Positions 11,265 through 64,000 of a DNA stretch of 64,000 nt are shown here, piece after piece (the stretch's first letter is position 1; each line of letters begins with the position of its first letter). The stretch comes from Amycolatopsis australiensis (GTDB taxonomy: Bacteria; Actinomycetota; Actinomycetes; Mycobacteriales; Pseudonocardiaceae), in the NCBI RefSeq assembly GCF_900119165.1, contig NZ_FPJG01000006.1:6634001-6698000 (forward strand), read 5' to 3'. Both the position numbers and the translations under genes were made by a program. Below the pieces are notes generated by a model. It was not told the DNA's origin. It saw only the letters and a program-made list of their open reading frames with translations, and did not search any database.

Positions 11265-11740
11265 ACACCGGAGGCGGCCTGCAGCTGGTACCGCAGTATC
11301 GGGCGGAGTCGACCGTGGCCACCTTGACCGGCACTCTTTCCCTGGCCACCTACCCCGAGCTGCGCGACAGCGTGCTCAAGATCGCCGCGGAGGCGCCGGA
11401 GAGCGTCATCGCCGACATCCAGGGGCTCGAGATCGACGACGACACCCTGATGACGGTGTTTTCGGTCATCGCCGCGCGGATCGGTGAATGGCCGGGGGTC
11501 CCGTTCGCGGTGGTGACCGACCGCGCGGATCACGTGGCACGCCTGTCGGCGCAGCTGGTGGACCGCTTCGTGGCGGTCCACGCGACGTCGCCGCGGCCGA
11601 GCGGGCGCGTGACCGGCCACCCCGCCGGCGGGCGGTGCAGCAGCTGGCCGCGTCACCGCAGGCCTCAGCGCTCGCCCGGTCGTTCGTCGGCCGGGTCTGC
11701 GCGGAGTGGGACGTGCCGGAACACGTCGAGGACGCTCTGA
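11261..11740 (+). CDS. STAS-domain protein, possibly the front half of a STAS-HATPase fusion
   Basis: The GTG overlaps the cheB stop. Residues 1-115 form a STAS-like fold (LTGTLSLATYPELRDSVLK, DIQGLEIDDDTLM). After about residue 110 the sequence becomes Arg/Ser/Pro-rich and looks out of frame, while the good coding signal moves to the next frame, which encodes the HATPase. Proteins with STAS followed by HATPase in one chain are known in actinomycetes, so a one-base indel near 11590 may have split a fusion gene. If there is no shift, the STAS protein ends at 11740. Confidence 0.65.
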   Translation: MNTGGGLQLVPQYRAESTVATLTGTLSLATYPELRDSVLKIAAEAPESVIADIQGLEIDDDTLMTVFSVIAARIGEWPGVPFAVVTDRADHVARLSAQLVDRFVAVHATSPRPSGRVTGHPAGGRCSSWPRHRRPQRSPGRSSAGSARSGTCRNTSRTL

Positions 11741-12021
11741 TGATCGCGACCGAGCTGGTGGAAAACGCGATCCGGCACACGACGTCGACCCCGCGGCTGC
11801 GGCTGGAGCTGCGCCGCGGCGTCTTCACCGTCGCGGTGGCCGATGACGACCCGCGGCCCGCCGTGCTGTTCGAGCTGCCCAGGCCCGGGCACGGTCTCGG
11901 ACTGCGGCTGGTCGCCCAGACCTCGCGGGTCTGGGGGTGCAGCGGGTCCTGGACTGGCGGCAAGGTCGTCTGGGCCGTGCTGGCGCGGCGCCGCCGCTCC
12001 TCCCGCGTTCGGGGCCGGTAG
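11635..12021 (+). CDS. HATPase anti-sigma factor (RsbW-like serine kinase)
   Basis: A GHKL/HATPase_c domain: N-box ATELVENAIRHT, G1-type DDDPRPAV, and G2-type GHGLGLRLVAQTSRVWG. Such proteins bind sigma factors and phosphorylate STAS antagonists. The frame is open from 11488; GTG at 11635 begins VQQLAASPQASALARSFV, which is where the family homology starts. It overlaps the STAS ORF and may be fused to it (see that entry). It lies directly upstream of the CheR gene. Confidence 0.75.
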   Translation: MQQLAASPQASALARSFVGRVCAEWDVPEHVEDALMIATELVENAIRHTTSTPRLRLELRRGVFTVAVADDDPRPAVLFELPRPGHGLGLRLVAQTSRVWGCSGSWTGGKVVWAVLARRRRSSRVRGR

Positions 12022-12022
12022 C

Positions 12023-13882
12023 GTGCGGAACGTGACGGAGTCCCAGCCGGAAGACGACGGCGAGTTCGAATCGGTCCTCGCCTACCTCAAGGAGTCGCGA
12101 GGCTTCGACTTCACCGGCTACAAGCGCAGCAGCCTGCGCCGGCGGGTGCAGCGCCGGATGGCCCAGGCCGGTGCCGAGAACTACGGCGACTACATCGACC
12201 AGCTGCAGGTCAACGCCGACGAGTTCGTCGCGCTGTTCAACACCATCCTGATCAACGTCACCGGGTTCTTCCGCGATCCCGAGGCCTGGGACTACCTGCG
12301 TGAGCAAGTGATCCCGGCCCTGCTGGCCGAGCGCAGCCCGGAGGAGCCGATCCGGGTGTGGAGCGCCGGCTGCGCCGCCGGCCAGGAGGCCTACAGCCTC
12401 GCCATCGCGTTCGCCGACGCCATCGGTGTCGACGCGTTCCGGCAGCGCGTCAAGATCTACGCGACCGACGTCGACGAAGAGGCCCTTGCCCAGGCCCGGC
12501 ACGCCGCCTACACCCCGGCCGAGGTCGAAGGGCTGCCCGAAGACAAGCTGGAGCAGTACTTCGAGCTGCAGGGCAGCCGGTACTGGTTCCGCAAGGACCT
12601 GCGCCGCTCGGTGATCTTCGGCCGCAACGACCTGGTCCAGGACGCCCCGATCTCGCGGATCGACCTGCTCGTCTGCCGCAACACGCTGATGTACTTCAAC
12701 GCCGAGACGCAGACGAAGATCCTCGAGCGGTTCCACTTCACGCTGGCCCAGCGCGGGCTCATGTTCCTGGGCAAGGCCGAGATGCTGCTCAGCCACACCC
12801 GCATCTTCGAGCCGCTCGATCTCAAGCGGCGCGTGTTCCGCAAGGTGGCCGGCACTCCTTCCGGCTACAGCCATTTCGTGTCCCCCGGCCTGCCCGCGCG
12901 CCGATCGATCGACATGTCGGGTCTGGACGAGCTGCGCGAGCAGGCCTTCTCGGCCAGCCCGGTGGCCCAGCTGGTGGTGACCGGCGACGAGGTGGTCGCC
13001 CTGATCAACCAGCAGGCGGAGATCTCGTTCGCGCTCACCGACCGCGACATCGGACGCAAGCTGTGGGACCTCGACGTGTCCTACCGGCCGGTCGCGTTGC
13101 GCCCGTACGTCGAGCAGGCCCGGCTGGAACGGCGGTCGCTGCGCATCAAGGACGTCGAGTGGCGGCGCGCGGGCGACACGGTCTGGTACGAGGTGCACGT
13201 CAACCCGCTGGTGAGCCGGGACAAGAGCCTGCTCGGCGTGTCGGTGGTGTTCCACGACGTCAGCTGGGCGCGCCTGCTCCTGCTGGAGCTCGAGCACACC
13301 AACCGCCGCCTCGAGTCCGCCTACGAAGAACTCCAGTCGACCAACGAGGAACTCGAAACCACCAACGAAGAGCTCCAGTCCACAGTGGAAGAACTGGAAA
13401 CGACCAACGAAGAGCTCCAGTCCACCAACGAAGAGCTCGAGACCATGAACGAGGAACTGCAGTCGACCAACGACGAGCTGCAGACCATCAACGACGCGCT
13501 GCGCGACCGCAGCGTCGAACTCGACGAGCTGAACGACTTCCTCGAATCCGTGCTGACCTCGATCCAGGCCGGGATCGTCGTGGTCGACACCGAAATGCGG
13601 ATCAAGGCCTGGAACCGCGGCGCCGAGGACCTGTGGGGCGTGCGCCGGGAGGAGGCCGAGGGCACCCACCTGCTCAACCTCGACATCGGGCTGCCGCTCA
13701 CCGAGCTGCGGCCGGCCGTGCGTGATGCCCTCGCCGACGCCGACTTCCAGACCGAGCTGACGCTGAGCGCGATCAACCGACGGGGCCGGGCCGCGGTCGT
13801 CCGGCTGCTGTGCAGCGCCCTGCGGTCCGCCGGCGGGCAGAGCCAGGGAGCCTTGCTGCTCATGGAAGAAACGCAGCCCTGA
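12023..13882 (+). CDS. CheR-type methyltransferase with coiled coil and PAS domains
   Basis: A 619-residue protein. Residues about 5-275 are CheR: an N-terminal helical domain (KRSSLRRRVQRRM), the SAM-binding WSAGCAAGQEAYSLAI and DLLVCRNTLMYF. A first PAS-like domain follows (about 300-415). A long heptad coiled coil comes next (about 425-505, repeats of EELQSTNEELET), then a second PAS domain (about 515-615, IVVVDTEMRIKAWNRGAEDLWG). This architecture is typical of CheR/PAS proteins that work with the stand-alone CheB upstream in stress or surface signalling. The start is GTG 12023; GTG 12032 is an alternative. Confidence 0.9.
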   Translation: MRNVTESQPEDDGEFESVLAYLKESRGFDFTGYKRSSLRRRVQRRMAQAGAENYGDYIDQLQVNADEFVALFNTILINVTGFFRDPEAWDYLREQVIPALLAERSPEEPIRVWSAGCAAGQEAYSLAIAFADAIGVDAFRQRVKIYATDVDEEALAQARHAAYTPAEVEGLPEDKLEQYFELQGSRYWFRKDLRRSVIFGRNDLVQDAPISRIDLLVCRNTLMYFNAETQTKILERFHFTLAQRGLMFLGKAEMLLSHTRIFEPLDLKRRVFRKVAGTPSGYSHFVSPGLPARRSIDMSGLDELREQAFSASPVAQLVVTGDEVVALINQQAEISFALTDRDIGRKLWDLDVSYRPVALRPYVEQARLERRSLRIKDVEWRRAGDTVWYEVHVNPLVSRDKSLLGVSVVFHDVSWARLLLLELEHTNRRLESAYEELQSTNEELETTNEELQSTVEELETTNEELQSTNEELETMNEELQSTNDELQTINDALRDRSVELDELNDFLESVLTSIQAGIVVVDTEMRIKAWNRGAEDLWGVRREEAEGTHLLNLDIGLPLTELRPAVRDALADADFQTELTLSAINRRGRAAVVRLLCSALRSAGGQSQGALLLMEETQP

Positions 13883-13973
13883 GGCGGTGTCCAGCACGCC
13901 AGCGGCGAGTAGCTTGAGGCCATGGACACCCAGCGCCGGTCCGGTGCCCGCCGACGTGCGCCGTAATGGCGCC

Positions 13974-14143
13974 ATGGCCGATGACACGCCCGGCCCGCCA
14001 CGATCGCCGAGCGTGCCGACCTGCGTGATCCGGGCTGGGCCTGCGCATCGTCGCCCACACCGCGAAGACGTGGGGCAGCAGCCGCCGGTGGTCGGGGTGA
14101 CCCGGTCGTCTGGGCCACCCTCGCCTCCACCCACGGCACCTGA
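13974..14143 (+). pseudogene. remnant of an RsbW-like HATPase gene
   Basis: Reading across frames gives the end of an anti-sigma HATPase: ADDTPGPP, then AERADLRDPG, then GLRIVAHTAKTWGSS, then GDPVVWATLAST and a TGA at 14141. This parallels the C-terminus of the intact HATPase at 11635-12021 (GLGLRLVAQTSRVWG...VVWAVLA). At least two frame changes are needed and no N-terminus is present. It lies between the CheR gene and the next STAS gene, the usual place for a switch-protein kinase. Confidence 0.6.
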
Positions 14144-14177
14144 TGTGCCCGAGGACCCGGCGAGGCAAAATGACCGC

Positions 14178-14549
14178 GTGACCTTTCGCCATCCCGAGGA
14201 ACGCCCCGCCGACGCGCGAGACGAGCTGACGGTGTCTGTGCGCTCGCTCGACGGCGCGCGGATAGTCGCCGCCGAAGGCACCGTCGACCTGCACACCGCG
14301 GGCCAGCTGACCGACGCGATCACCGCCGCGCTGGCGCACCAGCCCACCCGGCTGGTCATCGACCTGACCGCCGTGCGCTTCCTCTCCGCCGCGGGTCTGC
14401 ACGTCCTGCTCAAAGCCGACCACGCCGCCGGCGACCGCACCCAGGTCAAGGTCGTCGCGACCGGCCCGGCCCTGCACACAATCACCCTCACCGCCCTCGA
14501 CCGAGTCCTGGCCGTCCACCCGACACTGGCCGACGCGACGGGCCACTGA
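14178..14549 (+). CDS. STAS anti-sigma-factor antagonist
   Basis: A 123-residue STAS protein starting at GTG 14178. It shows an N-terminal strand (ARIVAAEGTVDLHTAGQLT), the core strand LVIDLTAVRFLSAAGLHVLL and the C-terminal VHPTLADA. The phosphorylation-loop serine is present as LSAAGL. The upstream in-frame stretch from 13887 is non-coding by composition and covers the HATPase remnant. It probably once formed a switch pair with that decayed gene. Confidence 0.8.
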   Translation: MTFRHPEERPADARDELTVSVRSLDGARIVAAEGTVDLHTAGQLTDAITAALAHQPTRLVIDLTAVRFLSAAGLHVLLKADHAAGDRTQVKVVATGPALHTITLTALDRVLAVHPTLADATGH

Positions 14550-14756
14550 TCCCTGGCCGGACTCCCCTCATTCCCGAGAACCGATCCGCACACCGTGATC
14601 GATCCGCTCGGCCGCCGTTGGAGCTACCACGGAAAGACCGGCCGCGCTGACGCCGCGTCAGCAGCAGACGTGCGCCCCGCTCCCCGGCGGTGCCGCGGAA
14701 GCAGCCGATACCGGCGGAGGACCGATAACCACCGCGACTTCCCGACGCCCGCGCCG

Positions 14757-14960
14757 ATGAGGCGCCCGACGCCACCACCACTGCCCGAGACCGGCTTCGA
14801 CCTCACGCGCGACCAGCGCTACCACGGTGCCCGCGTGGTGGCCTCGGCGGCGAACGACGCCGAGGACTGCGCCTTGCTGCTCGCCGTGCTCGGCCTCGAA
14901 CCCGCCGACGGGATGGCGGAGCCACCACCGCTCCCGCGTCCCGGCCTGCCAGGCGGATGA
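14757..14960 (+). CDS. small conserved hypothetical protein
   Basis: A 67-residue ORF with a Pro-rich start, a central helix GARVVASAANDAEDCALLLAVLGL and a Pro-rich end. The 'A-ND/A-EDC-LLL-LGL' pattern resembles small actinobacterial proteins of unknown function, but I cannot assign a named family. No strong ribosome-binding site was seen; the frame is open upstream to 14595. Confidence 0.4.
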   Translation: MRRPTPPPLPETGFDLTRDQRYHGARVVASAANDAEDCALLLAVLGLEPADGMAEPPPLPRPGLPGG

Positions 14961-54352: not shown

Positions 54353-54690
54353 ATGAGGCTCGATGGCGGGTCGAGTTCGGGTTCTGCGACCCGTCTACCT
54401 GGCGTAGTGCCCCGGGAGCAGTGGAACGACAACTTCACCGCGGCGGTCGCCGTCACCGACAACGGTCGGTACGCCGTGGACGCTGACCTTGAGTTTATCC
54501 GCCAGCCAACGGTCTCGCTCTACCGAGACGGCGACTATCTCCCAGCACGGCGACCGGGTCACCGTTACGGCCGCGGACTGCAACACGACCCCGGCGCCAG
54601 GCAAGACCGTCACGACCGGTTCCAACAGCAACTTCAACCACGGCACCCCGCCGCCGCGGGGTTCACGCTCAAGGGCGCCTGCTGCGGCGC
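54353..54690 (+). pseudogene. remnant of a family-2 carbohydrate-binding domain
   Basis: Pieces in two frames reconstruct the end of a secreted CBM2 protein: QWNDNFTAAVAVTDNGRYAV, then TATISQHGDRVTVTAADCNT and TVTTGSNSNFNHGTPP, then FTLKGACC. The catalytic domain and all upstream parts are gone. It is immediately followed by a perfect hairpin and by the STAND gene. Confidence 0.6.
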
Positions 54691-54699
54691 CCTTGAGCG
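54666..54699. terminator. 14-bp perfect hairpin
   Basis: CGCTCAAGGGCGCC pairs with GGCGCCCTTGAGCG around TGCTGC. It sits at the end of the CBM2 remnant, just 17 bp before the STAND gene start, so it was probably the terminator of the lost gene and may now insulate or attenuate the STAND gene. Confidence 0.65.
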
Positions 54700-54716
54700 C
54701 CGGGCAGAATGAGCGG

Positions 54717-57086
54717 ATGGATTCGTTCGATCTGGGACGGCTGAGTGACTACGACTTCGAAGTGGTCTGCCGGGACCTGTTTGAGGAGATCCTGGGTCTA
54801 AAGATCGAGATCTTAGCCCGCGGTGCCGACCGCGGGATCGACCTTCGGCACATGACCGGCGACGCCGGCGACGTCGTGATCCAGTGCAAGCACTGGGCCC
54901 GCAGCGGCCGTGCCAAGCTGCTCGCCCACATGCGCGATAAGGAGCGGGCCAAGATCGCAGAACTGCGGCCTGCACGGTACATCCTCGCCACGAGCGTCGA
55001 ATTGACCGTAGACGCGAAGGACACCCTCCTTGAAGACCTCGCGCCATACGTCCACAGTACTGGCGACCTGTACGGCGCGGAGCAGCTCACCGAGGAGTTG
55101 CGCAAGCGCCCGGCACTCGTGCAGCGCCATCTTCGGCTGTGGCTGACCAGTACCGCTGTCCTGCATGCGGTGCTGAACCAGGACGCGCTGCTCCGCTCGG
55201 AAGACCTGGTTAGTGAGCTCGACGACGCCGCGATGACCTTCGTCCCGACCCCCACCTTCGACGTAGCCCTGGACCTTCTCGAGCGAGAGTCGGTCTGCCT
55301 ACTGGCGGGTATCCCGGGCATCGGCAAGTCGACGATCGCGAAGATGCTCGCCCGCCTCCATCTGGAAAGAGGTTACCAGGTGGTCGACGTGACGCGGGAA
55401 ATCAGCGAAATCGACAGAATGTGGCTTCCCGAAAGTCCACAGCTGTTCTTCTACGACGACTTCCTGGGCGAAATTGCCTTCGACCACCACCTCGGAAAAA
55501 ACGAGGATCGTCGGCTGCTCGGGGTCCTTCGCCGGATCCGGAAGACGCCGGGGAAACTGCTGGTCCTCACCACACGCGAGTACATCCTGCGGGAGGCCAA
55601 GCATCGCCACGAGACTTTGGACGACGGCGACCTCGAACCGCTTACGTGCGATGTCGGGACGGACGCCTACAGCGTGGATATCCGTGCCAGCATCCTGTAC
55701 AACCACGTCTACTATTCCGAAATCTCAGCCGCCGAGAAGAGAAAGTTCGCCGTCCCGTCGCAGTGGCGCGATCTCCTCTGGCACCGCAACTTCAGTCCCC
55801 GACTCGTGGCGAATACCCTGCGCCTCGCCAGCCGTGACGGCACCGCGGAAGTGGCCGAAGCCCTGCTCCTCAACTTTGAGAACCCAGAGCGAATCTGGGC
55901 ACGCGTCATAGAACAGCAGCTCGACGCCTCCGCCGTCCACCTGCTCGAGGTGCTGTTCACGTTCGGCCGGGACACGGAGCTCGACGATCTCCACGACGCC
56001 TGGCGCAGCTATCGCATCGCTCTCAGGCAGTCGGACGACCGCCGGCAGTTCCACGACGCGGTGAAAGTGCTCGACGGCTCGATGATCGAAACGTCGCGCC
56101 TGTTCGACCCGATCGGGTTTGAAGGTGAAACCGCACCCGTCATCGTATCCTTTCACAACCCGTCCATTCGCGACTACCTACTGAGCCGGGTTCAATCGAA
56201 GCTGGTCTCCCTCGACGAGCTGCTCGGGACGATTACCGACGCTTCGCGTCTTCACCATTTGGTCTCACTCGCGTTCCTGCGCTCGCACAGCGTCCTGCGG
56301 GACGCGTTGCGCACCCGCGTCGACGACCTGACGGACTTGTTCCTTCGCGAATACGCCGAAACCGAGAGACCGTCCTTCGAGGAAGCACTTAGAGACGACG
56401 ACTGGGGCGACGAAGACGATGACGGCAGCTGGACGAGCGACCTGGACTACTACCTGAAGGTCGCGGTCGTCATCGACTCCCGGGTCCTGGCCGGATTTAT
56501 TGCGGACAAGATCGAGAACGCAGATTCCGGCCGGATCGGCGACTGCGAACCGAGTCATCTCATCACCCTCGCTGCTCACCTCGCGGCAACCGAGCTGGTC
56601 CCAGCGGAGCAGCGCCTTCGGCTAGGGCCCAAACTGCTCGACGAGGCCATCGCCGACAGGTCGCGCGCGCAAGGCCAGCTCGGATATCTGTGGTCGGACC
56701 TCATCGAGCTAGCGGAACTGCTGACCGACCTGGAGGTACCGGGAGCGCCCGCGCGCCTGCAGACGATCCACGAGGAGATGACCGATGTGGTGCACGGGGA
56801 ACTCCGCGCATGGCTGTTCGACGAGCCGGCACGGCGAGCATACACAGCCCGTTACGGCAACTGGTGGGATCTCGCGGAGGTCTTGTCGTCTGTCGAGCCC
56901 GAAGACCTGCCCGAAGAGCTGCGTCCCGCGTACGTCGTCGCTACGGCCGCGGCCCAGGCAGGTATTTCGGCCGAAACCCCGACACCGAAAGCCAGAGAGG
57001 TGCCGCCGACGAACAGGCCGCCCGTTCATATCACCGAGCTGACTCTCGACGAGACGCTTCGCAACATGCTCGAAACCCTCGAATAG
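54717..57086 (+). CDS. Mrr-type nuclease fused to STAND-like ATPase
   Basis: A 789-residue protein. Residues 1-130 are an Mrr/restriction-endonuclease-like domain: FEVVCRDLFEEILGL, then GADRGIDLRH with Asp42 and VVIQCKHW with Gln56-x-Lys58, the D...(E/Q)xK nuclease motif. Residues about 185-480 form a P-loop ATPase: Walker A GIPGIGKST (198-206), Walker B QLFFYDDFLG and a sensor-like LVLTTREYILRE. This matches the nSTAND3 group used in anti-phage systems. The helical remainder may sense a ligand. ATG 54717 starts the conserved domain. It resembles a one-gene defence system; the trigger is unknown. Confidence 0.85.
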   Translation: MDSFDLGRLSDYDFEVVCRDLFEEILGLKIEILARGADRGIDLRHMTGDAGDVVIQCKHWARSGRAKLLAHMRDKERAKIAELRPARYILATSVELTVDAKDTLLEDLAPYVHSTGDLYGAEQLTEELRKRPALVQRHLRLWLTSTAVLHAVLNQDALLRSEDLVSELDDAAMTFVPTPTFDVALDLLERESVCLLAGIPGIGKSTIAKMLARLHLERGYQVVDVTREISEIDRMWLPESPQLFFYDDFLGEIAFDHHLGKNEDRRLLGVLRRIRKTPGKLLVLTTREYILREAKHRHETLDDGDLEPLTCDVGTDAYSVDIRASILYNHVYYSEISAAEKRKFAVPSQWRDLLWHRNFSPRLVANTLRLASRDGTAEVAEALLLNFENPERIWARVIEQQLDASAVHLLEVLFTFGRDTELDDLHDAWRSYRIALRQSDDRRQFHDAVKVLDGSMIETSRLFDPIGFEGETAPVIVSFHNPSIRDYLLSRVQSKLVSLDELLGTITDASRLHHLVSLAFLRSHSVLRDALRTRVDDLTDLFLREYAETERPSFEEALRDDDWGDEDDDGSWTSDLDYYLKVAVVIDSRVLAGFIADKIENADSGRIGDCEPSHLITLAAHLAATELVPAEQRLRLGPKLLDEAIADRSRAQGQLGYLWSDLIELAELLTDLEVPGAPARLQTIHEEMTDVVHGELRAWLFDEPARRAYTARYGNWWDLAEVLSSVEPEDLPEELRPAYVVATAAAQAGISAETPTPKAREVPPTNRPPVHITELTLDETLRNMLETLE

Positions 57087-59397: not shown

Positions 59398-59542
59398 GTC
59401 GCCTCCCGTCCTCCGAACAGGGACCCGCGCGGGACCTCCACCACCGTAGATCTGGTTGTGCTCAATTTCTCTATGCCACTTCCCGGGACCTGTCCACTCG
59501 GCCCACCCGACGCGCTAACAATGAAAACGGGGATGAAGTCGC

Positions 59543-61288
59543 CTAACCGACGAGGACGTTGGCAGGAGGGGCCCACCCTATCGCGCGGACGCGGTCCCAG
59601 CAGGCGGTCTTCTTTGCCCACTCGGTGACGTTTCCGCCGCTCGGAGGTGACGTGAGCACTCGGCGCACAGCCTTGGCAACGTCGGGTACCGCACTGACGA
59701 TCGCTTCGGGCAGCGTCTGTTCGCGCCAGAGCCGGTCGAGATCGAGCCCGCCGAGCGTGTGTACGATCAGCGACACGCTGTGCGCAGCTGTCTGCCCGAG
59801 GTATCCCCCGAAGTTCTGCTTCTGGATGATCGACCTCACCTGGCGGAACACGATCGCCTTGGCGACCAGATGGCGGAAGTACACGTCATCGGGGGCTTCG
59901 CGCTCGGCTAAGCCCTCGTCCGACGTCCACGTCCGGAAGCACTTCTCAGCGCCCTGGCACACGACTTCAGGTCGGAGCGAGTAGGCGTACTCGTACTTGG
60001 CGGCGTCCGTCTTGCCGAATCGCTGTCGCACAGGGTTCTCGCGGTCGAACTTTCGTCGCGTGGCGGTGGTCGTGAACCTGTTCTTCTCGACGTCGTACTG
60101 CCCGCGCACGCGCTCGTAGTACCAGCGAGTCTGCTCGACGTCGACCCCGAGAGACGGCACCCAGGTGGTGCGGGACCACCGCTCCAACCCGACATGGAAG
60201 CGGCTGTTGCCCTCGAAGTCGGCTGGGGTGACAGCGTTCTGCGAGTTTGCGTAGCGGGAAATCTCCGGGACCATGCTGTCAAGCCGGTCATCGGGGATCA
60301 AGGTTATCTTCGCAGGCACCATGACCTGGGCCAAGTCGATCCCCTTGCGCGCAGCGTGGTGCAGCGAGGCGGTGGTCTGCCCACCGTTGACGATCTGCAG
60401 CTCGGTCAGGGTGCGCAGCACCAGTCCGCCCGACGTCCGCTCGAGGTCTGCTGCCCGAGCGGTGGCGGAGACGCCGTTGTTGTAGGCCAGGAATCGGCCA
60501 GGCTGCTCCTTGAGCGTCTCCGCGATTCCCTTGTTGACCTTTCCCCTGGCTTGGAGATAGGCACGCACGTTGCGCTGGAGCAGCCGGCTGTGGTGCTCGT
60601 CGTACAGATCGGCGAGCAGCTTCCCCGGCAGCATCGCCATCAAGCAGCGGTAACCATCGGCCTGCTCAGGTGACTCCAGGCAGTGCACCTCGTACCCCAT
60701 CTCCGCGACGTCGATGAGAATGTCCTCCTGGTGGGCGCCGGAGCTGATCAGCTTTTGGAGACGGCTGACGTCCCACACGTTCACGAGGGTCGGGAGACCA
60801 GCAACGGTGGCCTCTTCCGCTCGGCGCAATCCGCTCTTCCCGTCGGTGAAGACCAGAATCTTGATCATCTGCAACTGGGGCCACGCGCCGTGGATGTGCT
60901 CGACCATGTCGTAAGGCGGGCTCGACCGCTCAAGCTGCTCGTGCAGTCCGCTGCGGCAGAACTCCGCGAACGCGCCAGCGCGGCGGACCAACTGGGTTAG
61001 CCGCTCGCGCTTCAGGGGCTCGGCGTCCAAGCCGTAATCAGCCGTCACGAGGTGCAGGATCGTGCCGTCTCCTGTGATGTCGTACCCCGCGACCTCGATG
61101 CGACGGCTCTGCCAGGGCATGAACAAGTAGCAGGTGTCCAGATCGTCTAGCGCCCCGTCGTCGATCAGGTGCTCACCGATCAGGGTCACGAAGGCGTCCC
61201 GCGCCATTAGCTCCGGCTCCGCCTGGACCCGGTCCTCCACCCTGCGCCGCAGCTCCGCTACGAAGGCGGCGAGTTCGCCGTCCGTCAC
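59543..61288 (-). CDS. AIPR-family abortive-infection protein
   Basis: A 581-residue protein of the AIPR family, linked to phage resistance by abortive infection. Landmarks: ARDAFVTLIGEHLIDDGALD at the N-terminus, GRFLAYNNGVSATARAADLE and LQIVNGGQTTASLHHAARKG in the middle, and SRYANSQNAVTPADF. The GTG at 61288 overlaps the stop of the upstream sigma/ATPase gene (GTGA) and follows GGGGGA. The upstream in-frame extension to 61507 is a shadow of that gene. It is separated from the methyltransferase by 145 bp. Biochemical activity of AIPR proteins is not settled. Confidence 0.9.
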   Translation of the reverse strand: MTDGELAAFVAELRRRVEDRVQAEPELMARDAFVTLIGEHLIDDGALDDLDTCYLFMPWQSRRIEVAGYDITGDGTILHLVTADYGLDAEPLKRERLTQLVRRAGAFAEFCRSGLHEQLERSSPPYDMVEHIHGAWPQLQMIKILVFTDGKSGLRRAEEATVAGLPTLVNVWDVSRLQKLISSGAHQEDILIDVAEMGYEVHCLESPEQADGYRCLMAMLPGKLLADLYDEHHSRLLQRNVRAYLQARGKVNKGIAETLKEQPGRFLAYNNGVSATARAADLERTSGGLVLRTLTELQIVNGGQTTASLHHAARKGIDLAQVMVPAKITLIPDDRLDSMVPEISRYANSQNAVTPADFEGNSRFHVGLERWSRTTWVPSLGVDVEQTRWYYERVRGQYDVEKNRFTTTATRRKFDRENPVRQRFGKTDAAKYEYAYSLRPEVVCQGAEKCFRTWTSDEGLAEREAPDDVYFRHLVAKAIVFRQVRSIIQKQNFGGYLGQTAAHSVSLIVHTLGGLDLDRLWREQTLPEAIVSAVPDVAKAVRRVLTSPPSGGNVTEWAKKTACWDRVRAIGWAPPANVLVG

Positions 61289-64000
61289 GTCGTCCCCCTG
61301 GTTCGGTGCTGTTCGATTACAAGCTCTGACTTGCCGCGTGCAATGCGCGCGAGAGCAGTAAGCCTCGGCCGCAGCGGTGCCGGCACCACGACCGCGGCTC
61401 CGGGGTGATCTTCGCGCCAGGCGGACCGCTGTGCGAACGGTACCTCGACGAGGACCCTGGCCAGTGCGGTGCTCTCCGCCATGTCCAAGCCGTCGAGTCC
61501 GAGCCACCCACCGCGCGAGAGGTACCGGCCGTCACATCGCACGTAGAAACCCTGCGAGGCCCGCCAGTCGACCGGGTCGCCGACCGAGTCCGCCTCTCCG
61601 GCACGCAGGAGGTCCGGGTGGGGTAGGACGCGAGGACTGGCGACCACCGAGAAGCCTTCGCCAGTTACCCGCTCTTCCCCGAGGTGCTGCCCGGCCGGGT
61701 TGCCCCACAGGAACGGGTCTTTCGCAGTCACCGCGCATCCGTTGACGTCGAGGCGGATACTGCGTTCCAACAACTCTCCGAACACCACGCCCAAGTCGCG
61801 GATGCACCGGTTGAGGATCGTTCCGAGGTGTGCACCCGCGACTTGCGGACGTGGGATGCGGAGCAACACCACCGACCAGCGGTCGACCTCGTCCTTGGCC
61901 AGCAGTCCCGCGGGGAGCCTCCGAGAAGAGCGATGCAACCACCAAGTGTCGGTGTCCACGGCGGAGGTGAGCACGAGGCAGGCCGGGGACGCATGCGACT
62001 CCCAGGTGGTGATCTCACCGTACAGGGAAGCGGCGATGCCGAGGGCCACCGATCCGAGGGACACCTCGCGTCCCTCGGACAGCGTCGAGAGCAACGAATA
62101 CCCGGCGAATGCTGCACCGTCGTGGACTAGCGAAAGTCTGCAGCTCGTGCCAGAGCCCGCGCTCCTGATGCGGACGTGGCGGGCGCCGGATCGCAACGCG
62201 CGGTCCACCAAGGCGATCAGCAATGTTCCCACGGCATTATCTCCGCCTGCAGCGCCGAGCAGCTCCACGAGTCGCGATCCCGTGGCGATCTCCGTGCTGG
62301 TCGGGCGCTTGTCACGCTTCGGTGTGCGCATGCCGTTCGACCGACGGGTCGGACGCTTCGGTGAGGGCACGGGAACGGGATTTGCACCGCCGGCCACCAG
62401 ACCTACGTCCGCGAGCTTGTCGCGCAGGTTGTCCTTCGCCTTGCTTTCGATCTGCCGCGCTCGTTCGCGGGTGAACGAGAAGTGCTCGCCGATCTTATCC
62501 AGGGTGAGGTCGTCACCACCGTCAAAGCCGAACCGCAACCTGAGCACTTCGGCTTCGCGCTCCTTCAATAGTGACAAAGCTTCCTGCACGAGTTCGGCGC
62601 CGAGTTCGCGGTCTACCACGTAGTCGGGGTTCGAGTGGTCCTCGAGCGGAGCGGGGATCAGCTCCGCGAACGAGATCTCGCCATCCATGCCCAAGGGTGC
62701 GTCCAGGCTGATCACACCCAAGGACAACCGCAGGCAGTCCACCACCTTCTCCCAAGACAACCCGGTGCGTTTGGCGATCTCTGCGATTGGAGCGTCTTCC
62801 TGCTGGAGGAGCAGCCTGTTCCGGACGGTGCGAACTTTGCGGACTTCTTCGTATTTGTGGACCGGCAGCCGGATCATCGCGCCTTCGTCGGGAACTGCTC
62901 GGCCCATGTGCTGGTTGATCCAGTTCACCGCGTAGGTGGAGAACTTCAGCCCTCGCGAGCCGTCCCACTTCTCGATCGCCCGCATCAGACCCAACAGCCC
63001 GTGCTGGTGCAGGTCCTCGTAGTCGAGACCGGCACCGAGGTGCTTCGTGATGCAGGAGCCCACGAGGCCGGTGTTGTGCAATACCATGGCGTCGAACGCC
63101 TTCGCCCGCTCGTCAGCGCTGCGCAGCGTTGAGCGAAAGCCTTTGGGCAGTTCCTCCGCGAGATCTTCACCGGTAAGCCGCATCAACTGTGCCAGCCCGA
63201 CCTCCTCCTCCGCCGTCAGCAGGCGTTTCGCGCGGTCCTCGCTCCGCATTGGAGCAGCGAGCACAGCGCGGGCACTGTCGACGGCTGATCGGCTGGGCGG
63301 GGGCAGCTGTTCTGCTGTGGAAGGAGAAGCAGCGAGGTGCCTGGTGGACACCATCTCCACCCACTCGTCGCCGACCGCCTTGCGCGTGCGGTCGTCCACC
63401 AAGGCGGACGGGAGCCCGCTCAAAGCAGTGGGTCGTCCCACACCGGAGTAGGAGAGAAACAACTCCGAGCGCGTCGTAGGGCCGAGCACCCGCAGCGCGT
63501 TCTCGAACCGGAAACGGTCCTCCACCTGGTCGAGTCCCGCCAGCACGACGTGGTCGAACCGCATACCCACGGCGCTGACCCAGGTCAGAACCTTGACTCC
63601 CGGGTCGGATGCGGTAACCGCGGCGTGCCGCGGGACCCTTGCACCGGACAGGTGCCACTGCGTCGTACCGTCGAACAGGTCGCCGATCCCGTCCTTGAAG
63701 ACTTGGACCAATTCGCGGGTCGGCAGCAGCACGCCGATTCGCCGGTCGCGGTGCGCCGTCGCGTGCTCTACGACAAACCGGATCTCCTCGTCGACGTCCT
63801 CGTGGTCCACCAGCACTGGGCGCGGACCTTCACGGCGGGAGACGTCTGTGAGGAAAGATCCATCGCCGAGGCGCTCTAGCAACTGGTCGATCTGCGCGGT
63901 GCCGCCATCGACGTCGTGCGAAGTCGTGGCGGCATCCGCGCCGAGGAGAGCGGTGAGGTCGTCCTGTGTCGTACCGGAGTCTCCGACCGTCTGCACGGGG
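61285..64000 (-). CDS. SF1 helicase / sigma-70 / MORC-like GHKL ATPase fusion, 5' partial
   Basis: At least 903 residues; the N-terminus lies beyond the right end. Residues about 20-200 look like the C-terminal part of a UvrD/SF1 helicase (GVLLPTRELVQVF, VLTWVSAVGMRFDHVVLAGL, RSELFLSYSG). Residues about 255-535 are a complete sigma-70 core: region 2 (DYEDLHQHGLLGLMRAIEKW, FSTYAVNWINQHM), region 3 (IAEIAKRTGLSWEKVV) and region 4 (EAEVLRLRFGFDGG, FSFTRERARQIESKA). Residues about 570-700 resemble a MORC/MutL GHKL ATPase (LLIALVDRALRSGARHVRI, VSLGSVALGIAASLYGE), then a transducer-like region (SQGFYVRCDGRYLSRGGWLG). It overlaps the AIPR gene by GTGA. Confidence 0.88.
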   Translation of the reverse strand, partial: PVQTVGDSGTTQDDLTALLGADAATTSHDVDGGTAQIDQLLERLGDGSFLTDVSRREGPRPVLVDHEDVDEEIRFVVEHATAHRDRRIGVLLPTRELVQVFKDGIGDLFDGTTQWHLSGARVPRHAAVTASDPGVKVLTWVSAVGMRFDHVVLAGLDQVEDRFRFENALRVLGPTTRSELFLSYSGVGRPTALSGLPSALVDDRTRKAVGDEWVEMVSTRHLAASPSTAEQLPPPSRSAVDSARAVLAAPMRSEDRAKRLLTAEEEVGLAQLMRLTGEDLAEELPKGFRSTLRSADERAKAFDAMVLHNTGLVGSCITKHLGAGLDYEDLHQHGLLGLMRAIEKWDGSRGLKFSTYAVNWINQHMGRAVPDEGAMIRLPVHKYEEVRKVRTVRNRLLLQQEDAPIAEIAKRTGLSWEKVVDCLRLSLGVISLDAPLGMDGEISFAELIPAPLEDHSNPDYVVDRELGAELVQEALSLLKEREAEVLRLRFGFDGGDDLTLDKIGEHFSFTRERARQIESKAKDNLRDKLADVGLVAGGANPVPVPSPKRPTRRSNGMRTPKRDKRPTSTEIATGSRLVELLGAAGGDNAVGTLLIALVDRALRSGARHVRIRSAGSGTSCRLSLVHDGAAFAGYSLLSTLSEGREVSLGSVALGIAASLYGEITTWESHASPACLVLTSAVDTDTWWLHRSSRRLPAGLLAKDEVDRWSVVLLRIPRPQVAGAHLGTILNRCIRDLGVVFGELLERSIRLDVNGCAVTAKDPFLWGNPAGQHLGEERVTGEGFSVVASPRVLPHPDLLRAGEADSVGDPVDWRASQGFYVRCDGRYLSRGGWLGLDGLDMAESTALARVLVEVPFAQRSAWREDHPGAAVVVPAPLRPRLTALARIARGKSELVIEQHRTRGTT

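Follow-up and report, generated by a model that had tools for sequence, protein, structure and literature searches.

Introduction

A sigma factor adjoins a MORC-type protein in the mzaABCDE system, reportedly an anti-phage system (Gao et al. 2020), where the sigma factor (MzaA) and the MORC-type protein (MzaB) are separate subunits and an AIPR protein (MzaE) accompanies them. Where PMC9523054 deals with this system, it refers to mzaA as a sigma factor and describes mza as validated. DISARM carries drmA, drmB and a cytosine methylase within one operon; as set out in part of PMC9142583, DrmAB is autoinhibited and loads onto DNA with a 5' single-stranded overhang, whilst DrmC, a phospholipase D nuclease, is apparently non-essential. 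MORCs have also been placed, in the main section of Iyer et al. 2008 (PMC2292703), in restriction operons alongside helicases, methylases and AIPR proteins. Here we describe a gene of Amycolatopsis australiensis, at the right-hand end of a 64,000-nucleotide stretch of DNA (contig NZ_FPJG01000006.1, positions 6,634,001 to 6,698,000; hereafter 'the window'), whose product appears to fuse a pseudo-helicase, a sigma-70 factor and a pseudo-MORC module, and which sits in an operon combining components of DISARM and Mza.

Results

A single reading frame encoding three modules

The fusion gene is a single open reading frame on the minus strand, still open where the window ends; the sequence further to the right adds 440 bases and completes a protein of 1051 amino acids without an internal stop, such that the 'rest of the helicase' anticipated in a preliminary description of the locus amounts to ~147 residues. 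Its start codon is GTG, overlapping the drmB stop as GTGA. From the N-terminus, the order is a superfamily 1 (SF1) helicase core, a sigma-70 factor that spans regions 1.2 to 4.2, and finally a MORC module of GHKL and S5 lobes (Table 1). The three modules, their order and the continuous frame, all put forward in the preliminary description, hold for the complete protein and recur in relatives down to 38% identity, the closest found being 96% identical and of equal length. Profile and fold matching of the three segments agrees, with a sigma factor above Pfam cut-offs flanked by UvrD-type and MORC folds; in a Foldseek search with the whole model, only sigma factors stand among the best 50 rows.

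Counts over 37 below refer to our main alignment (A1), which holds the protein's own sequence and 36 of 45 homologues (P0010, P0020, P0024, P0030 and P0041–P0045 are absent; A2 holds all 45). Loci number 16, with L145 (L012), L146 (L011) and L148 (L013) left out as duplicates, and G856 is excluded from counts, its protein being 100% identical to that of A. pretoriensis (L010). The comparison of genomes for a shared domain order that had been suggested thus finds the architecture in all 37 sequences of the alignment and at 16 loci, which rules out a frameshift or assembly join. Source databases label P0002, P0003, P0005 and others 'RNA polymerase sigma factor RpoD/SigA', a name that is misleading for fusions.

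Catalytic residues are missing from both ATPase folds

The fold of the N-terminal core matches UvrD and HelD, its two RecA-like lobes being of UvrD type; the sites that correspond to Walker A and B fall immediately outside the window end. At the P-loop position the family reads PGxDQ-like, D and Q each occurring in 28 of the 29 rows covering the site and GKT in none of them (0/29). At Walker B, a position located by the order of strands and the surrounding motifs and not by superposing residues, GQ is found in 37/37 where helicases carry DE. A profile comparison sets the DQ stretch opposite the GTGKT of the operon's own NERD-UvrD, in a match that is weak overall (prob 4.9). Other stages are seen in four divergent loci (L152–L155), whose proteins retain TRARR of motif VI and the Asp of Walker B but have lost the Lys of Walker A and the Glu of Walker B. 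Because Walker A and the Walker B Asp-Glu are lost, the helicase-like module is unlikely to hydrolyse ATP and is likely a pseudo-enzyme; unlike UvrD and HelD it lacks these residues, and is joined to a sigma factor.

At the other end, the C-terminus is homologous to MzaB, and has a GHKL and S5 fold of the MORC type. The N-box Asn is absent in 37/37 (Arg in 19, Gln in 9, His in 8, Leu in 1) and the G1 motif reads HDG, with His in 34/37; MzaB-type proteins carry a DLVDNS or DLIDNS N-box, and DNG or DDG at G1. Pfam gives no HATPase match to this part of the fusion at E<=10; an MzaB encoded in a related genome, by contrast, hits HATPase_c_3 (2.1e-29). In the S5 lobe, QGFYVRCDGRYL fits the motif GhXhhpXXRhl (Iyer et al. 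2008) at all positions but one. A linker takes the place of the GHKL lobe in L152–L155, where S5 is kept, in agreement with the PADLOC matches of L152 and L154. Foldseek returns a mixture of Hsp90-type and MORC chains for the C-terminal model, with Hsp90-type first; a second aligner places MORCs first. Since the GHKL N-box is lost, this module too is unlikely to hydrolyse ATP and is likely a pseudo-enzyme. The prokaryotic MORCs in the main section of PMC2292703 share its GHKL and S5 lobes and its methylase, helicase and AIPR gene neighbours, but differ in that the fusion's GHKL motifs are lost; no sigma fusion was met with in the parts of that section consulted.

The two flanking modules, named as a helicase and an ATPase in the preliminary description, therefore both look like pseudo-enzymes (Walker A, Walker B Asp-Glu and GHKL N-box lost), with the folds themselves seemingly retained. 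The ratio of non-synonymous to synonymous substitution rates (dN/dS) is 0.09–0.28 (four comparisons, four domains), so every domain is under purifying selection; catalysis would have been lost and the gene kept.

In searches with the end modules, where the ~8000 candidates with most shared words were scored within a length limit, residues 1–395 recovered 24 proteins, all members of the fusion family, and the C-terminal module two, both bearing sigma domains; either module was found only in sigma-containing proteins of the fusion family. The MzaA model gave no match to the N-terminal module alone.

A conserved sigma-70 module with an altered region 2.4

Region 2.2 of a sigma factor binds the polymerase core, region 4.2 reads the -35 element, and the Trp pair of region 2.4 helps melting. 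The sigma module can be aligned to the HrdB-like sigma factors of its own genome, and exceeds the Pfam cut-offs for regions 2, 3 and 4 (42.8, 32 and 54.1 bits versus 24, 25.3 and 24.1); region 1.2 matches at E 0.087 only, below cut-off. Both of the signatures named earlier, for binding core and for reading -35, are present in 37/37: D477, Q480, G482, R488 and E491 in region 2.2, and R659, E660, R661, R663, Q664 and E666 in region 4.2 are all invariant (residue numbers follow P0046, i.e. protein numbering + 1), as are the KFSTY stretch and W508 of regions 2.3/2.4. Region 3.0 keeps its His in 36/37 and Glu in 34/37.

The preliminary description also had region 2 keeping its core-binding and melting segments, of which the former stands and the latter is kept in part: the first position of the region 2.4 WW pair is Trp in 4/37 and Asn in 23/37, including the protein's own sequence, with the second Trp kept in 37/37. 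Region 2.4 is, by its residues, not canonical, the primary-type Trp pair being incomplete. Because the region 2.2 and 4.2 signatures are kept, the sigma module should bind polymerase and -35 DNA, though its melting step may differ. It is the best-conserved portion of the protein, with a mean pairwise identity of 61% (S5 57%, helicase-like part 49%, GHKL 42%) and 46 invariant columns of 270.

The fusion gene lies within a DISARM/Mza hybrid operon

A link to defence had been suspected, and is confirmed by the position of the fusion gene inside a drmA-drmB-AIPR-methylase operon. The order drmA-drmB-fusion-AIPR, on one strand, is found in 16/16 distinct loci whose fusions are 34–100% identical (best segments), and ATGA or GTGA overlaps join both ends of the fusion gene to its neighbours in the 9/9 loci checked (our own and eight more). 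As in DISARM, drmA, drmB and a cytosine methylase occur within one operon: DrmB scores 427.8 bits, above the NCBIfam cut-off of 240; DrmA matches PADLOC at 4.1e-207 and NCBIfam DrmAS with 891.2 bits (cut-off 950); and the methylase matches PADLOC DrmMII at 2.7e-75 and MTase_II at 2.4e-84. The operon differs from DISARM in that DrmC finds no match among its six proteins (Pfam, PADLOC), and in the addition of NERD-UvrD, AIPR and the fusion.

Compared with mzaABCDE (PADLOC PDLC02203-02207; NCBIfam NF041931, NF041935), the sigma part matches the MzaA models (3.1e-39), the C-terminus MzaB and the AIPR protein MzaE; these assignments are by homology only, the scores for MzaA and MzaE falling below their NCBIfam cut-offs. 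Relatives of MzaC or MzaD were found in none of the 16 loci (tblastn E<=1e-4) and among none of the six operon proteins (Pfam). By homology, then, the fusion appears MzaA-MzaB-like and set in a DISARM core without MzaC or MzaD, and the cassette is a DISARM/Mza hybrid with a sigma-pseudoATPase subunit. ARMADA, BRIGADE and TALON are likewise variants around a YprA/DrmA-type helicase, TALON with a NERD nuclease, but none is described with a sigma factor in the main text of the preprint (PMC12458937), which contains no MORC, GHKL, AIPR or Mza, and 'sigma' twice, as a supplier's name. Our literature search, which worked from titles and abstract openings and had most subscription journals outside its reach, found no paper on such a fusion. 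The earlier remark that no described protein is known to have this order accordingly needs dividing: the MzaA/MzaB-type fusion, its ATPase decay and its DISARM setting are new, whilst the MzaA and MzaB pieces were already known separately.

The neighbouring enzymes keep their motifs: GAGTGKT, VDEAQD and TRA in NERD-UvrD; PTGGGKT, QDEFH and QATSRVGR in DrmA; and PPCQ and ENV in the methylase. Of all the cassette proteins, the fusion is conserved least in distant loci, at 36% identity in L109 (DrmB 54%, DrmA 61%, NERD-UvrD and AIPR 62%, methylase 67%) and 43% in L151 versus 60–66% for the remaining cassette proteins.

Table 1. Coordinates of the fusion gene, its modules and the downstream genes (window numbering unless a locus is named).
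Feature	Position	Strand	Extent or basis
Complete fusion gene	L009:4286-7441 = window-equivalent 61285-64440		1051 amino acids
Fusion gene, part within the window	61285..64000	(-)	Open frame; start and length conserved in relatives
SF1 pseudo-helicase core (putative), part within the window (residues ~147-355)	63376..64000	(-)	Whole core residues ~11-355
Sigma-70 module, regions 1.2 to 4.2 (residues ~405-674)	62419..63228	(-)	Pfam, residue tally, HrdB-like sigma alignment
Degenerate GHKL lobe (residues ~716-850)	61891..62295	(-)	MzaB alignment, motif tally, MORC fold
N-box position in GHKL lobe	62185-62214	(-)	
S5 lobe and C-terminal helix (residues ~851-1048)	61297..61890	(-)	MzaB match, MORC fold
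GTGA overlap, fusion stop/AIPR start	61285..61288	(-)	
AIPR gene, MzaE-like, 581 amino acids	59543..61288	(-)	Pfam AIPR 4.2e-86; PADLOC MzaE 2.2e-75; 16/16 loci
Gap of 145 base pairs between AIPR and methylase genes	59398..59542	(-)	Alignment of six loci
Cytosine-5 DNA methylase, DrmMII/MTase_II-like, 622 amino acids	57529..59397	(-)	Pfam DNA_methylase 4.2e-59; PADLOC; PPCQ and ENV motifs

A NERD-UvrD gene precedes drmA in 12/16 loci and is partly visible at the locus end in L109; L153 lacks it before drmA, a divergent UvrD helicase being found in that locus by Pfam. This divergent version of the cassette also holds, by Pfam, a Vsr-type mismatch endonuclease (L153:16128-16778) and a second cytosine methylase (L153:14020-16251). 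Downstream of AIPR, a methylase relative follows on the same strand in 15/16 loci, is divergent in L149, and is one of two in each of L151–L155. The gap between AIPR and methylase genes is unusually well conserved among close relatives, and could contain a promoter for the latter.

Upstream of the operon, the element GTAACYATGTCACYCGAAC (L009:14085-14103, window-equivalent 71084-71102) precedes the start of NERD-UvrD by ~133–144 bases in 7 of the 11 loci compared. It has a single genomic occurrence at <=3 mismatches, on which ground a regulon marked by it was rejected; as a candidate regulatory element it leaves room for autoregulation. When three flanking genes were used as queries, one alone recurred with a long match, in L010 and L143. 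Convergent with the cassette, at 54489-57083 on the plus strand, is a gene whose 865-amino acid product combines an Mrr-type nuclease domain with an nSTAND3 NTPase; it was not found in the other 15 loci and is probably a separate defence gene.

Distribution

With thresholds of E<=1e-70 or 1e-80, and the window's own genome included in each count, the fusion occurs in 12/346 genomes of the family (5/46 genera), 2/298 of the order and 5/394 of the class (divergent query); named sources include Amycolatopsis, Saccharothrix, Actinosynnema, Lentzea, Allokutzneria, Nocardia and Saccharopolyspora. The MzaA model, run class-wide, matches in 287/296 genomes, none above cut-off, the listed matches falling mainly on the sigma part. 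MzaB-type genes are present in 23/298 genomes of the order (E<=1e-10, fusions included). Of the four loci examined at the strongest MzaB-type matches (L122–L125), L122 reads MzaB-MzaC-MzaD-MzaE in a family search, and relatives of the L122 MzaB, MzaC and MzaD occur in the others. Neither the sigma part nor the pseudo-helicase part of the fusion has a relative in any of the four (tblastn E<=1e-4), and so a sigma-less MzaBCDE and a sigma-fused DISARM version coexist in the order. In two of these MzaBCDE-like loci a pair of MORC-type genes flanks a methylase gene (L123:9834-11312 and 13614-14930; L124:7731-9233 and 11513-12817).

A phage-borne origin was rejected, as the viral contig relatives (best 80 of 198) cover the sigma part and little more, spanning query residues 349–716 at the widest in a scan whose patterns derived from the sigma part; a plasmid-borne origin was likewise rejected, with no plasmid match at E<=1e-80.

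Discussion

The anatomy of the fusion, as read from sequence and models (UvrD-fold pseudo-helicase, sigma-70 module, pseudo-MORC module), is firm; its mechanism we infer. We favour, tentatively and at a probability of about 0.42, a non-catalytic adaptor that anchors the DISARM/Mza restriction machinery to RNA polymerase, promoter DNA or both, supported by the loss of both ATPase sites in folds kept under purifying selection, by the invariant region 2.2 and 4.2 signatures of the sigma module, by the homology of the C-terminus to the Mza subunit MzaB, and by the confinement of both end modules, within the limits of the searches above, to sigma-containing proteins of this family. Overlapping reading frames would couple synthesis of the fusion to that of DrmB and AIPR; its S5 lobe and/or helicase-like core would bind the DrmAB helicase and AIPR, with the sigma module tethering the complex to polymerase, promoter DNA or both. 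Because an incoming phage genome needs early transcription, docking on polymerase would give DrmAB, a helicase that loads on single-stranded DNA, access to the bubbles that transcription opens in unmodified DNA, with the methylase marking the cell's own; that a bubble may substitute for a 5' single-stranded overhang in this loading is an extrapolation. Taken to its fullest form, in which a 'captive' sigma factor docks the DISARM core on polymerase, with two 'fossil' ATPases as scaffold, for inspection of promoter bubbles at first transcription and attack on unmodified phage DNA there, the proposal becomes doubtful.

Several observations weigh against the adaptor. Conservation of regions 2.2, 3.0 and 4.2 is equally expected from a true sigma factor, and the conserved GTAACYATGTCACYCGAAC element is a possible operon promoter. 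HelD is an RNA polymerase-binding factor, yet a HelD-like fold is by itself no proof of polymerase binding, and the loss of ATP hydrolysis in both modules is judged from sequence. Structure prediction, advised at the outset, yields the UvrD-type and MORC folds but no reliable placement of the modules, the AlphaFold2 model having a predicted template modelling score (pTM) of 0.41; polymerase, DrmAB and AIPR are predicted partners.

The main rival is a true alternative sigma factor, whose flanking pseudo-domains would either detect infection or keep it inactive within a DrmAB/AIPR complex and which, once freed, directs polymerase to its own operon promoter or to other genes; transcriptional control by the fusion, as first suggested, is possible, and the set of sigma regions is complete, with the -35-reading residues invariant (37/37), the region 3.0 His and Glu nearly so (36/37, 34/37) and an upstream element conserved in 7/11 loci. 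We nevertheless find it unlikely, given that the first region 2.4 Trp is lost in 33/37, that the element occurs once in the genome (<=3 mismatches), hence no regulon can be built on it, and that a regulator does not need a one-to-one tie to DrmB and AIPR by overlapping frames. The position between drmB and AIPR (16/16) and the overlaps (9/9) instead favour a stoichiometric subunit over a scarce regulator.

That altered region 2.4, beside an invariant region 4.2, would also suit a sigma module acting without RNA polymerase, as a promoter-DNA-binding arm that places the restriction complex on -35-like sequences; free sigma factors are poor promoter binders, however, and region 2.2, the core-binding segment, is as invariant as 4.2, making such an arm improbable. 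The divergence of the fusion in far loci (36% versus 54–67% in L109, 43% versus 60–66% in L151) is what a phage-facing part would show, and could point to a guard whose sigma module is bait for phage factors that disable or supplant host sigma factors (anti-sigma proteins, polymerase inhibitors), binding of which switches on the DISARM/AIPR machinery; part of PMC12409349 documents how phages interfere with RNA polymerase and how this is sensed indirectly. Against this, the sigma module is the slowest-evolving part of the protein, not the fastest, and a phage partner is not known, so that we give a guard little credence. Two modules without catalytic residues might finally suggest a decaying gene or a frame or assembly artefact, an explanation refuted by conservation across 37 aligned sequences and 16 loci, with dN/dS of 0.09–0.28 in every domain, and left with a negligible chance.

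The presence of the fusion gene inside a virus-defence operon suggests that defence machinery is tied to the transcription machinery. Fusions named RpoD/SigA risk being counted as housekeeping sigma factors. The two ATPase modules, which appear to have discarded their motors and kept their folds, indicate that the scaffold and motor roles of MORC- and helicase-type modules are separable. Were the adaptor reading true, a restriction system would reach invading DNA via the promoter-finding subunit of the polymerase, which would supply a reason for the sigma factor in the Mza system.
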